Under the pieces are notes generated by a model. It was given only the letters and a program-made list of their open reading frames with translations, searched no databases and was not told the DNA's origin. Below, piece after piece: positions 1,741 through 36,977 of a DNA stretch of 64,000 bases (positions are counted from its first letter, which is position 1; the number at the start of each line of letters is the position of its first letter). This stretch comes from Shinisaurus crocodilurus. Its lineage: Eukaryota > Chordata > Lepidosauria > Squamata > Shinisauridae. The stretch lies in assembly GCA_021292165.1 (NCBI GenBank), contig CM037877.1:108003858-108067857 (forward strand). The letters are read 5' to 3'. The translations under genes were made by a program, and so were the position numbers.

Positions 1741-2153
1741 GTACAGTAGTCTAGGCGAGAGGAGACCAAGGCATGAACCACTGATGGGAGCAGGTGATTA
1801 GGAAGGTAGGGGCGCAGCTGCCGTATCAGATGGAGTTGATACAGCGCCGCCCGGCTCACAGCTGCCACCTGAGCCTCCATGGACAGCTGGGAGTCTAGAA
1901 TGACCCCAAAGCTGCGGACCTGGTCCTTCAGGGGGAGATGTACCCCATTCAGCACCAGGTCAACATCCCCTAACCTCCCCTTGTCCCCCACCAGAAGTAC
2001 CTCGGTCTTGTCGGGGTTCAGTTTCAGCATGTTCCTTCCCATCCATCCAGCCACTGCCTCCAGGCACTTGGACAGGGTCTCAACGGCCAACCTCGGTGAG
2101 GACTTGAAACAGAGGTAGAGCTGCGTGTCATCCGCATACTGACGACACCGCAC
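1725..2153 (-). pseudogene. LINE reverse transcriptase, YADD segment (broken)
   Basis: The 142-residue frame starts with CRQYADDTQLYL, reverse-transcriptase motif C with the two catalytic Asp. It runs through LKLNPDKTEVLLVG and the thumb-like region to RLDYC. There a deletion of several bases near 1745-1755 throws the frame, and the downstream part continues in the 1300-1740 frame. The enzyme is inactive because of two frameshifts. Confidence 0.85.
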
Positions 2154-2988
2154 CCCAAAACCTCCTGATGATAGCTCCCAGCGGCTTTAGGTAGATGTTG
2201 AATAACATCGGGGAGAGGATGGAACCCTGCGGCACTCCACAAGTGAGCGGCCGAGGGTCCGAAGCCTCCTCCCCGAGAACTACCCTCTGGTACCTTCCAG
2301 AGAGGAAGGACCGGAACCACTGCAATACAGTGCCTCCCAAGCCCAACCCCTCCAGGCGGTCCAGGAGGATACCGTGGTCAACGGTATCAAAAGCCACCGA
2401 GAGATCGAGGAGGACTAGAAAGGAGCATTCTCCCCTATCCAAAGCCCTCCTCATATCATCCACCAAGGTGACCAAGGCCGTCTCCATCCCATGTCCAGAC
2501 CTGAAGCCCGACTGGCACGGATCTAAATAATCGGCTTCATCCAAGTGGGCCTTCAACTGAGCACCCACCACCTGCTCGATCACCTTGCCCAGAAATGGTA
2601 AATTGGAGACTGGGCGAAAGTTGTTTAAATCCTGGGGATCCAAGGAGGGCTTCTTTAGAAGCGGTCTTATTACTGCCTCCTTGAGGGCTGCTGGCATCAC
2701 TGCCTCCTCGAGGGAGGCATTCACCACCGCCTTGATCCCCTCACCCAGTCTCTCCCTGCAGCTCATTATGAGCCAGGACGGGCAAGGATCAAGCAAGCAG
2801 GTGGTCGGCCTCACAGATGAAAGCACCTTGTCCACTTCATCAGAAGGAAGAAGCCGAAAACTGATCCCACAAAACCGGTCTGCCATTGGCCTCCTCCCGC
2901 TCACTCCCTGTGGGATGCACGATATCCCACTCCTAATCTGATCGATTTTATCTGCGAAGTGCTTCGCTAAAGCCTCACAGGCTTTCAC
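2128..2988 (-). pseudogene. LINE reverse transcriptase, N-terminal and catalytic part (broken)
   Basis: The 286-residue frame carries non-LTR reverse-transcriptase motifs in order: NFRPVSNLPFLGKVIE, then LLDLSVAFDTVDH (motif A, catalytic Asp) and GVPQGSILSPMLFNIYL (motif B). After LKPLGAIIRRF the frame is lost by a shift at about 2150, in a run of A/T around CACCCCAAAA. The YADD motif follows in the next frame. Such proteins nick the target and copy LINE RNA, but this copy cannot encode one. Confidence 0.85.
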
Positions 2989-3039
2989 CTGAGGTGGCCA
3001 AGTGTCCTACTTTGCGGAGGACAGTCCGCCATTTGAATG

Positions 3040-23340: not shown

Positions 23341-23348
23341 CTTCAAAG

Positions 23349-23495
23349 CAGGGATGGGGACTCGGACTCGAGGACTCGACTCGTGAGTCGGACTGAGTCC
23401 CCCCTCTGACTCGACTCGGACTCGAGTCCCAATATTTTTAATGGGACTCGAGACTCGACTCGGGACTCGAGACCAAGGACTTGTCAACATCCCTG
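23349..23495. repeat. Self-contained terminal module of the ACTCG element
   Basis: This 147-bp stretch is itself bounded by CAGGGATG and CATCCCTG. Its right half duplicates the true right terminus of the element. It could be an ancestral short MITE or a duplicated end. Confidence 0.7.
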
Positions 23496-23689
23496 GGCTG
23501 TTGATGAGTCTTCTGGCTGTGCCAGGAGCGCGATCACCGGGGAAGAGTGCATGGAAGCGAGGAGCGCCGCTGCTCGGCCACTATGGACAGCTACCAGGAG
23601 CGCAGCCCCAACGATGTGTTGAGATTTATTTTGATGTGTTGTTGTGGGGGGTTAGGGTTAGGGTCAGACATTTTGGGTTTGGCTGCCTC

Positions 23690-23825
23690 TGCCTGCCTGT
23701 TTGGGGTTCCCTGCCTCCTCTGCCTGCCTGGTCTCTTCTTAACCAGTTCCACAGTTTGAATTGTCCAAGACAAAGGCCCCTGCCTGCCTGCTTTGGGGTT
23801 CCCTGCCTCCTCTGCATGCCTGGTT
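23690..23825. repeat. Internal tandem duplication in the ACTCG element
   Basis: TTTGGGGTTCCCTGCCTCCT followed by CTGC(C/A)TGCCTGG occurs twice about 95 bases apart, with CCTGCCTG preceding each unit. Confidence 0.75.
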
Positions 23826-24127
23826 ATTTTGGGTTTGTCTGCCTAGTCTGTTATTGCCAAAATCAGTTGCAGAGTTTTGAAATAAAAAGGCACACTTGTG
23901 CCTAGAATTTATTTAAGCCACACATCTGAAGTAGTCTTATTTTGTTGGGGGGAAACCCCATTGATTTTAATAGGGACTCGTGGAGTCAGTTTTGGGAGTG
24001 ACTCAGGACTCGGGACTCGGGAGTCACCATTTTGGACCAAGGACTCGGACTCGAGACTCGGGTCCAAAGACTCGTGACTCGACTCGAGACTCGAGACCAA
24101 GGACTCTTCAACATCCCTGCTTCAAAG

Positions 24128-31389: not shown

Positions 31390-33240
31390 CATTTATTTAT
31401 TTCATTTCATTTCATTTCTATACCACCCCACAGCCGAAGCTCTCTGGGCGGTTCACAACAGTTTGTACATAAAAACAATAAAAACATACAAAATAGTTAA
31501 AAAGATTAAAAACCAAATTTAAAAGCACAGTTTAAAATACAATCCAAAAGTTAATAAAACTAAGCCTACAGGTGACAATTCCCCCCCCCCCGTGCTATTT
31601 TGAGCTCTTAACTATTGAATGCCTTGGCATAGAGGGAAGTCTTAACCTGGCGCCAAAAAGATAGTAAGGTTGGCACCAGGCGGGTCTCAGTGGGGAGCTT
31701 ATTCCAAAATTGGAGGGCTACCACTGAGAAGGCCCTCCTCCTTGTTGCCACCAACCGAGCTTCTCTTGGAGGTGGCAGTCGGAGGAGGGCCCCAGATGTT
31801 GAGCGTAGTGTCCGAGTAGATTGAAGTTGGGAGAGACAAGACGTTCCGTCAGGTATTGTTGTCCTAAGCCGTGTAGGGCTTTATAGGTTAGAACCAGCAC
31901 CTTGAATTCAGCTCGGAAGCATATTGGCAGCCAGTGCAAACGGGCCAGAACCGGTGTAATGTGCTTAGACCTTCTGGTCCCTGCAATAAGCCTGGCTGCC
32001 GCATTTTGCACAAGCTGCAGCTTCCAAACAGTCTTCAAATGCAGCCCCATGTAGAGTGCATTGCAGTAGTCTAGTTTAGAGATCACCAGAGCGTAGATTA
32101 CTGAGACCAAGCTATCCCTGTCCAGATAGGGGTGTAGCTGGGCCACCAGCTGAATCTGGTAGAAGGCACTCCTTGCCACTGAGGCCACTTGAGCCTCAAG
32201 TGACAAAGATGGCTCCAAGAGCACCCCGAAGCTATGAACCTTCTCCTTCAAGGGGAGTGCAACTCCATCCAGAACAGGTTGAACACCCTCCATCCAGTCA
32301 AAGGAACCGCCCACTAATAGCATCTCAGTCTTGTCTGGATTGAGCCTCAGTTTGTTAGCCCTCACCCAGTCCATTGTTGCAGCCAGGCACTGGTTCAGCA
32401 CATCCACAGCCTCACCTGCTGAAGATGAAAAGGAGAAATAGAGCTGCGTGTCATCAGCGTACTGATGGCAACGCACTCCAAAACTCAGGATGACCCCACT
32501 CAGTGGTTTCATGTAGATATTAAATAGCATGGGGATAAGACCGACCCCTGAGGAACCCCATACTGGAGAGTCCATGGGGCTGAGCAGCATTCCCCAAGCA
32601 CCACCCTCTGGAGCTGGCCATCCAAGTAGGAGCGGAATCCACTGCAATGCAGTGCCCCCCACCCCCAACTCAGACAGCTGCTCCAGAAGGATACCATGGT
32701 CGATGGTATCGAAAGCCGCCGAGAGATCCAGGAGTATCAGCAGGGTCGCACTCCCCCTGTCTCTCTCCCGACATAGGTCATCATACAGGGCGACCAAAGC
32801 TGTTTCTGTGCCAAAGCCAGGCCTGAACCCCGACTGAAATGGATCCATATAATCAGTCTCATCCAAGAGCGCCTGGAGCTGGTTGGCCACCACCCGCTCA
32901 AGGACCTTGCCCAGAAAAGGAACATTCGCCACTGGCCTAAAGTTGTTAAGATCTTCCGGGTCCAGAGAGGGTTTCTTCAGGAGTGGTCTCACCACCGCCT
33001 GTTTCGGGTGGCATGGGACCACTCCCTCTCGCAAGGAGGCATTGATCACCTCTCTGGCCCAGCCGGCCGTTCCCTCCCTGCTAGTTTTTATAAGCCAAGA
33101 GGGGCAAGGATCCAGAACAGACGTGGTTGCACGAACCCGTCCAAGCACCTTGTCAACATCCTCGAGCTGTACCAACTGAAACTCATCCAAAATAACTAGA
33201 CCAGGCTGTGCTCTGGGTACCTCTCCTGATTCTACTGCTA
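31390..33240 (-). mobile_element. L2/CR1-like LINE (type B), 5'-truncated copy
   Basis: The minus-strand 3' tail (TTTATTTATTTCATTTCATT as read on +) is followed by ACCACCCCACAGCCGAAGC and CTCTGGGCGGTTCACAAC. This differs from the type A 3' end at 1162, so it is a different subfamily. Reverse-transcriptase coding sequence fills 31718-33190. The 5' limit near 33240 is approximate. Confidence 0.85.
31718..33190 (-). pseudogene. LINE reverse transcriptase, long open frame with compensating shifts
   Basis: The 490-codon frame holds NFRPVANVPFLGKVLERV, LLDLSAAFDTIDH (motif A), YADDTQLYF (motif C), LRLNPDKTEMLLVGG and LVQNAAARLIAG. From about 32545 to 32640 it reads out of frame. The proper motif (LQYGVPQGSVLSP) and FRSYLDGQLQRVVLGE lie in the 32509-32697 frame, so two opposite indels bracket motif B. 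A further shift at about 31830 scrambles the C terminus. It is not functional. Confidence 0.85.
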
Positions 33241-33847
33241 TAACATTGGAGTCTAAGTCTCTAATTCATTGGCCCATTAAGTGTCTGGGCCATGTTCCCC
33301 TTACCTGGGTAGTCCTCCTCCCAATGCCATATCTTCCTCTACCTGTCACTACACTAATTGGGGGCCCCACAGAACCCCCCACTTGGCCCCATGACTCCCC
33401 TCTAAGGCACATGCTCAGGCCCTATACAGGGAAAAACAATCCCCCCCCACCAAGGGCACCAAATAGCAGTGTTAGGAGGGTGGCCCTTGCCCTTGTGGCA
33501 CCCCCGAAGTGGCTCCCCCCCAAAGGGGCAACCCCCTTTGGTGTCGTCCCCTTCGGGGCCATCACTGCCGGGGCGTCGCTGCCCCACTCCGGGCCGGCAG
33601 ATAAAGGCCTGTGGAGCGTCAAGTAAGCCCAGGTGGCAGGCATCCTAATTAGGCAGGCCTGGGGGAGTCGCCCTCCTCCTGCTGGCAGTGGAGCTTCTCC
33701 CAGGAAAGGGGCCCCAATCCAGCCAGCAGCAGCGTCAGCCAAGGCAGAAGGCTGACGAGGTGGTAAAGCAGCTGGCAGGACGGTAGAAAGGGCTATACTA
33801 ACTAAAGGGCTATACTATACTAAATAGGGCTAACTAACTCCTTACTA
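33241..33847. other. GC-rich, repeat-like sequence without a gene
   Basis: Dense CCCC and GGGG runs with a stem-like region around 33515-33560 (CCCCAAAGGGGCAACC, CCCCTTCGGGG). It may be the interior of the flanking composite element or the 5' UTR of the LINE. No coding family recognised. Confidence 0.4.
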
Positions 33848-36189: not shown

Positions 36190-36197
36190 CTTTGAGA

Positions 36198-36969
36198 CAG
36201 GGATGGGGACTCGGACTCGAGGACTCGACTCGTGAGTCGGACTGAGTCCCCCCTCTGACTCGACTCGGACTCGAGTCCCAATATTTTTAATGGGACTCGA
36301 GACTCGACTCGGGACTCGAGACCAAGGACTTGTCAACATCCCTGGGCTGTTGATGAGTCTTCTGGCTGTGCCAGGAGCGCGATCACCGGGGAAGAGTGCA
36401 TGGAAGCGAGGAGCGCCGCTGCTCGGCCACTATGGACAGCTACCAGGAGCGCAGCCCCAACGATGTGTTGAGATTTATTTTGATGTGTTGTTGTGGGGGG
36501 TTAGGGTTAGGGTCAGACATTTTGGGTTTGGCTGCCTCTGCCTGCCTGTTTGGGGTTCCCTGCCTCCTCTGCCTGCCTGGTCTCTTCTTAACCAGTTCCA
36601 CAGTTTGAATTGTCCAAGACAAAGGCCCCTGCCTGCCTGCTTTGGGGTTCCCTGCCTCCTCTGCATGCCTGGTTATTTTGGGTTTGTCTGCCTAGTCTGT
36701 TATTGCCAAAATCAGTTGCAGAGTTTTGAAATAAAAAGGCACACTTGTGCCTAAATTTATTTAAGCCACATCTGAAGTAGTCTTATTTGTTGGGGGAAAC
36801 CCCATTGATTTTAATAGGGACTCGTGGAGTCAGTTTTGGGAGTGACTCAGGACTCGGGACTCGTGAGTCACCATTTTGGACCAAGGACTCGGACTCGGAC
36901 TCGAGACTCGGGTCCAAAGACTCGTGACTCGACTCGAGACTCGAGACCAAGGACTCTTCAACATCCCTG
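36198..36969. mobile_element. ACTCG-array hAT element, copy 2 (772 bp)
   Basis: Same architecture and strand as copy 1. CAGGGATG and CATCCCTG ends carry a different perfect 8-bp duplication CTTTGAGA (36190-36197 and 36970-36977), so it is an independent insertion, not part of a segmental duplication. The first ~550 bp appear identical by eye. Differences are small indels near 36754-36800 and one extra GGACTC unit at about 36893. No transposase. Confidence 0.92.
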
Positions 36970-36977
36970 CTTTGAGA

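Follow-up and report, generated by a model that had tools for sequence, protein, structure and literature searches.

The two repeat copies found in the window (the whole 64,000-nucleotide stretch of DNA analysed) are very likely members of a 777-bp non-autonomous hAT subfamily mobilized in trans by a hAT transposase whose gene is rare and lies in this genome as well. All of the features described here lie within known hAT biology; what is unusual is the disproportion between 30,307 right tips and five matches to the 5' coding region of the transposase in a genome search, the presence in both ends of CpG-rich arrays that keep to one strand, and a subfamily with a foreign segment that has reached about 3,400 copies. 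The family was not found described in the literature searched, and it may carry a name in Repbase or Dfam.

An earlier note on this DNA had reported copies at 23349-24119 (copy A) and 36198-36969 (copy B), each with CAGGGATG/CATCCCTG ends and its own perfect 8-bp duplication, and this description proved exact throughout: copy A is bracketed on each side by CTTCAAAG and copy B by CTTTGAGA, both perfect target-site duplications (Table 1). The terminal inverted repeats are the 8-bp CAGGGATG/CATCCCTG, which start with CAG, and past these 8 bp the resemblance between the ends is weak. The first ~550 bp had been judged identical, as indeed are the first 556 aligned positions; overall identity is 98.5%, the differences being one substitution and small indels. 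ACTCG, said to occur 11 times in the left 147 bp and 10 times in the right ~150 bp, was found on the plus strand 11 times in the left 147 bp and 10 times in the right end of copy A, and 11 times in each end of copy B. These counts are far above expectation, since in dinucleotide-shuffled ends (2000 shuffles per end) the mean was 0.6-0.9 and the maximum 4-5, and the observed 10-11 were reached in 0/2000 shuffles of any end. The further claim that all of these words share one orientation is nearly correct, but one CGAGT is present per copy, as the other half of the palindrome GGACTCGAGTCC; the CTCGAG palindromes that had been mentioned number 7 in each copy. Elsewhere in the window (both copies excluded) there are 14 ACTCG and 17 CGAGT, and CpG is retained in the ends, with an observed/expected ratio of 0.8-1.0, but depleted in the middle of the copies (0.30-0.31) and in the window (0.29).

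Two features of the window copies go beyond the earlier note, namely an internal 11-bp copy of the right tip and a 49-bp internal duplication. Because the former lies at element 137-147, the left 147 bp of each copy is itself delimited by CAGGGATG and CATCCCTG. The terminal portion of the right end also recurs in the left end as a direct repeat (51 bp, 92%). The foreign segment terminates in a telomere-like TTAGGGTTAGGG (23652-23663 and 36501-36512), at its border with the element interior. An Rfam search of the window returned no match, and two minus-strand regions (31718-33265 and 2128-3006) contain frames with the reverse-transcriptase domain PF00078, probably non-LTR retrotransposons.

Table 1. 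Features of the two element copies and their target-site duplications (TSDs) in the window.
Feature	Position	Strand	Remark
TSD CTTCAAAG, left of copy A	23341..23348	.	8 bp
Copy A left end, element 1-135: CAGGGATG tip and 11 ACTCG	23349..23483	+	Common to older 679-bp subfamily (consensus vs consensus 97.8% over 1-136)
Copy A internal right-tip copy CAACATCCCTG, element 137-147	23485..23495	+	
Copy A foreign CpG-bearing segment, ~168 bp, element 148-315	23496..23663	+	Absent from 679-bp subfamily consensus
Copy A interior common to 679-bp subfamily, with 49-bp internal duplication	23664..23948	+	In 679-bp subfamily matches 3' UTR of transposase-bearing element
Copy A right end: 10 ACTCG and CATCCCTG tip	23949..24119	+	
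TSD CTTCAAAG, right of copy A	24120..24127	.	8 bp
TSD CTTTGAGA, left of copy B	36190..36197	.	8 bp
Copy B left end, 11 ACTCG	36198..36332	+	
Copy B internal right-tip copy	36334..36344	+	
Copy B foreign segment	36345..36512	+	
Copy B interior common to 679-bp subfamily	36513..36797	+	
Copy B right end: 11 ACTCG and CATCCCTG tip	36798..36969	+	Array 6 bp longer than in copy A
TSD CTTTGAGA, right of copy B	36970..36977	.	8 bp

In the 2.19-Gb assembly that contains the window, a search with the 771-bp copy gave 3,722 first-look candidates, the best 40 of which were scored, and all 40 were full length and were read. The proposal of a recently mobile, non-autonomous hAT element with further genomic copies bearing 8-bp duplications is well supported, as 38 of these best 40 have perfect duplications, one (L030) has a single mismatch and one (L014) has none; their left-flank octamers are 40 distinct words. 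The consensus of the same 40 is 777 bp long with a mean divergence of 0.74% (0.39-1.30%), a figure that is biased low by the selection of those copies most similar to copy A. In exact form, the right tip GACTCTTCAACATCCCTG is present 15,111 + 15,196 = 30,307 times in the genome (reversed control, 0), which is a count of tips rather than of elements, because some elements carry two, and the family is therefore large. The 777-type junction is present in 1,721 + 1,700 = 3,421 exact matches (control, 0). The window copies belong to a younger derived subfamily marked by the internal right tip and ~168 bp of foreign DNA; both this and the size of the family as a whole had been understated in the earlier note.

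A search pattern for an internal tip not followed by 777 sequence yielded three loci (L041, L042 and L043), and one of these, L043, a 590-bp element without a clean duplication, opened a second subfamily. Its interior, used as a query, gave 344 first-look candidates, of which 40 were scored and 30 loci were read (one of them, L044, being the same place as L043). The resulting 679-bp consensus was built from 28 copies, leaving out L069, which did not resolve, and L073, which has a perfect duplication but at 1,142 bp exceeds 800 bp; mean divergence is 2.4% (0.9-5.2%). Target-site duplications are perfect in 21/29 and have at most one mismatch in 24/29 (29 resolved from 30 loci), counts that are biased upwards since the ends were picked among tip-like words as the pair with the best duplication. 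Compared with this consensus, the 777-bp form is 97.8% alike over the left end (1-136) and 94.8% alike from its position 316 onwards; between these common parts the 11-bp right-tip copy and a foreign sequence of ~168 bp replace ~95 bp.

The longer relative with a hAT transposase that the earlier note anticipated was found, linked to the family by its coding end, 3' UTR and right end, but a common left end was not seen. A genome search with the PF05699 profile gave 7,321 candidates, 150 of which were scored and 30 loci returned, and among these 30 the family was matched by L103 only. This match introduces a 4,719-bp DUF4371-type hAT (tips CAGGGCCGGYGC) that lies inside a 679-type copy at L108. 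As it separates the left end of a family copy from that copy's interior and encodes both PF05699 and DUF4371, one could envision it as the mobilizer; however, it has tips of a different sequence and a separate 8-bp duplication, CGTGTTCC on both sides, the outer copy is flanked by GCACTACC on both sides, and the family interior lies outside it and matches the coding end of a different locus (L114, below) instead. Because the inner and outer duplications are separate, it is a nested insertion, and as mobilizer of the family it is hardly credible. The two separate duplications likewise rule it out as a parent of the family (L103/L108). The nested element (G000:C5:65818900-65824400) has frames of 516 and 432 aa, one of which contains both DUF4371 and PF05699.

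At four more PF05699 matches (L109, L111, L112 and L113) the downstream 1.3-1.5 kb was sampled, and L111 and L113 enter the 679-type interior. L114, a close relative of L111, has an intact-looking 792-aa open frame (720 aa from ATG). From position 142 on, the 679-bp consensus matches L114 at 94% as far as position 492, and L113 at 97% up to and including the right tip. In L114 the match begins in the last codons of the 792-aa frame (KIVFLKCNMDKF and stop) and continues in the 3' UTR; in L113 the PF05699 match overlaps the start of the common stretch, which is followed by the 3' UTR and a right end with 7 ACTCG and CATCCCTG. In L111 and L114 the match to the consensus ends at 492, with no right end in the next 0.9 and 0.3 kb, respectively; no left end was present in the sequence read at L114, L115 and L116, and no copy with an intact transposase and both ends was seen among the coding loci read. 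L115 and L116 have more than 1 kb upstream of the coding region in common (86%), so the element extends further 5'. Coding copies are located at C5:79325937 and C7:12909998. Because the final codons and 3' UTR of L114 match the start of the 679-type interior, the 679-bp form looks like an internal deletion of the coding element in which the left end was joined to the coding end, and the L114 frame is, from this sequence relationship, the probable mobilizer of the family. Elsewhere among the PF05699 matches, those covering profile positions 9-83 form a group with many open frames of 838-856 aa, suggestive of another young hAT; at L109, sampled from this group, the downstream 1.5 kb has no match to the family with ACTCG ends.

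The L114 frame contains the hAT dimerisation domain PF05699 (1.6e-11), and against solved structures at E<=0.001 it matched only Hermes-type transposase chains (4 sequences), with its D/D/E residues aligned to Hermes D180, D248 and E572. A C-x2-C...H-x4-H motif, read by eye, aligns near the Hermes finger; a Pfam scan of the frame gave no BED match at E<=0.001. A protein search, in which scoring was confined to the 7,990 candidates with the most words in common, gave 280 proteins at E<=1e-20. Among the 120 of these that were listed, agamid lizards have the nearest relatives (66% in Pogona vitticeps; in Phrynocephalus 58%, and another at 72% that covers 54% of the query), followed by Hydra (40%) and fish (33-42%), which is suggestive, though no proof, of a squamate host.

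In hAT transposition, the subterminal repeats are where BED domains collect, and the core cuts at the tips. By analogy, ACTCG is the obvious candidate word for BED binding: the arrays would play the part of subterminal repeats and be bound by the putative BED-like zinc finger of the transposase, whose core would act on the CAGGG tips. Hermes (PMC10368747) and this family share 8-bp target sites, short tips, a D/D/E triad and a hAT core, as well as many short subterminal repeats that, in any one end, tend to point the same way; Hermes also has a BED domain, to which the motif read by eye may correspond. Other hATs too can have all words of an end on one strand, because Hermes STR2-7 at the left end and STR1-5 at the right end are each uniformly oriented; in the Hermes complexes of the same account, BED domains bind three left-end repeats and the right-end repeats are unbound (PMC10368747). 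Unlike the Hermes words AAGT/AAGC, which have no CpG, the word here is ACTCG and lies on the same strand at both ends, and the L114 protein is only 29% identical to Hermes over 123 aa. The tips of Tol2 differ from CAGGGATG/CATCCCTG. Its palindrome AAGTACTT has no CpG, unlike ACTCG, and mutation of its subterminal repeats lowers excision (PMC10368747); the two ends of Tgf2 contain 17 and 18 repeats, and a 50-bp probe from the left end is bound by Tgf2 transposase with an intact zinc finger (PMC4890040).

Alternatively, the arrays could serve regulation of the host or the element rather than transposase binding, for example through AP-1-like TGACTCA words. Each right end contains one TGACTCA, and copy B also has a single TGAGTCA. 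However, the word multiplied at both ends is ACTCG, not TGACTCA, and binding of subterminal repeats by BED domains is established for Hermes (PMC10368747); a regulatory role is very improbable.

The earlier note had proposed that the arrays bind the transposase and could be methylation-sensitive. In the 679-bp subfamily, 94/1,089 array CpG cells are off consensus, as compared to 180/7,140 other cells of the ends and 148/9,559 non-CpG cells of the middle, and the array CpG changes include 41 to TG and 42 to CA. Methylated CpG would be expected to decay in this way, and the pattern suggests germ-line methylation of the array CpGs, which is compatible with methylation-sensitive binding. In the 777 type (copies ranked by similarity to copy A), the arrays and the foreign segment may differ in methylation, as CpG changes number 34/1,827 in the ends and 51/800 in the middle (Fisher p 1e-8), but singletons are equal, at 21/1,827 and 8/800 (p 0.84), and the shared middle changes show no linkage to the 6-bp indel. 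CpG-containing motifs are known for hAT-derived proteins, most CGGBP motifs containing CGG; for four hAT proteins the motif corresponds to subterminal sequence of the protein's own element, although hATs of two insects have AT-rich motifs (PMC8097297).

The origin of the 777-bp form can be approached through the variant loci. L041 and L042 are variant elements, both with perfect target-site duplications, and in these two as in the 777 form the left end leads into the right tip CAACATCCCTG, behind which each of the three has a filler of its own. The filler of L041 has a 98-bp match and a second, 60-bp match to host DNA ~1.5 kb upstream. It was found at the L041 locus only, and a longer ancestor with this filler is rejected. 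Recurrent junctions of tip and filler suggest template switching during gap repair. Gap repair on the 679-bp form, itself probably produced from the coding element through internal deletion, would copy the left end first, switch into a right end at the direct repeat GACTCGAGACCAAGGACT common to both ends, run past its tip into flanking DNA and then rejoin the element, and the 777-bp product would have multiplied to about 3,400 copies. In a strict genome pattern, which would pass ~1/4 of possible sources, the 168-bp segment without the tip gave 0 matches. A search for a known protein-coding exon in the segment compared two short translated frames with solved structures, giving six designed barrels (over a 12-residue stretch) and one weak match (E 0.38), or nothing.

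A different origin for the 777-bp form would be a composite, or macrotransposon, in which a complete 147-bp mini-element and a left-truncated element were moved together by the outer ends. The bounding of the left 147 bp by CAGGGATG and CATCCCTG agrees with this, as does the observation that, among the first 100 right tips listed, 21/99 neighbour pairs are less than 1.5 kb apart, all on the same strand and 0 opposite. However, these pairs all lie in a single region of one chromosome and could stem from duplication there, a solo 147-bp element was found in 0/3 non-777 junctions (with a pattern that would pass only ~18% of sites), and the filler of L041 resembles that left by template switching. 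A composite is thus unlikely, if still a serious possibility. Template switching is also one half of a more far-reaching reading, in which ACTCG would be a methylation-sensitive switch, the zinc finger needing unmethylated CpG, host methylation silencing copies in cis and deamination disarming them, while the direct repeat in both ends would send gap repair past right tips into host DNA repeatedly, so that the family gains flanking DNA and one product rises to thousands. Taken as a whole, that reading is decidedly doubtful.

In Ac/Ds, too, there are derivatives with internal deletions and filler DNA, explained as products of abortive gap repair. Unlike in Ac/Ds, the same junction of left end and right tip recurs here, and one product has reached ~3,400 copies. 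Multicopy capture of non-element DNA is seen in hAT-N8_XT, a Pack-TIR with a piece of the CAPSL 5' UTR that multiplied with new duplications, and four multicopy cases (1.4%) are reported for animals (PMC8277862). In contrast to that example, which had spread to three chromosomes, the 777 form has ~3,400 copies, and for its segment, foreign by absence from the 679-bp consensus, capture of host gene DNA is no more than a possibility. The subfamily is of value as an abundant natural record of a hAT acquiring foreign DNA and subsequently spreading it; multicopy captured DNA in animal elements is reported as few (PMC8277862). An intact-looking vertebrate hAT transposase gene together with thousands of closely similar substrates in one genome also offers a direct test bed for the recognition of subterminal repeats, and the same pair suits the question of whether recognition depends on CpG methylation.

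In G000:C1:585407-3570619 there are 33.5 right tips per Mb (first 100 listed) as compared to a genome mean of 13.8, and 777-type junctions are likewise dense among the matches listed; a local segmental duplication is possible. A spacing of 401 bp between right tips was seen four times among the 21 pairs less than 1.5 kb apart (first 100 listed). In the G000:C1 listings, two main values, ~539 and ~630 bp, stand out by eye for the distance between a 777-type junction and the right tip that follows it, which suggests a second length variant of the young subfamily.
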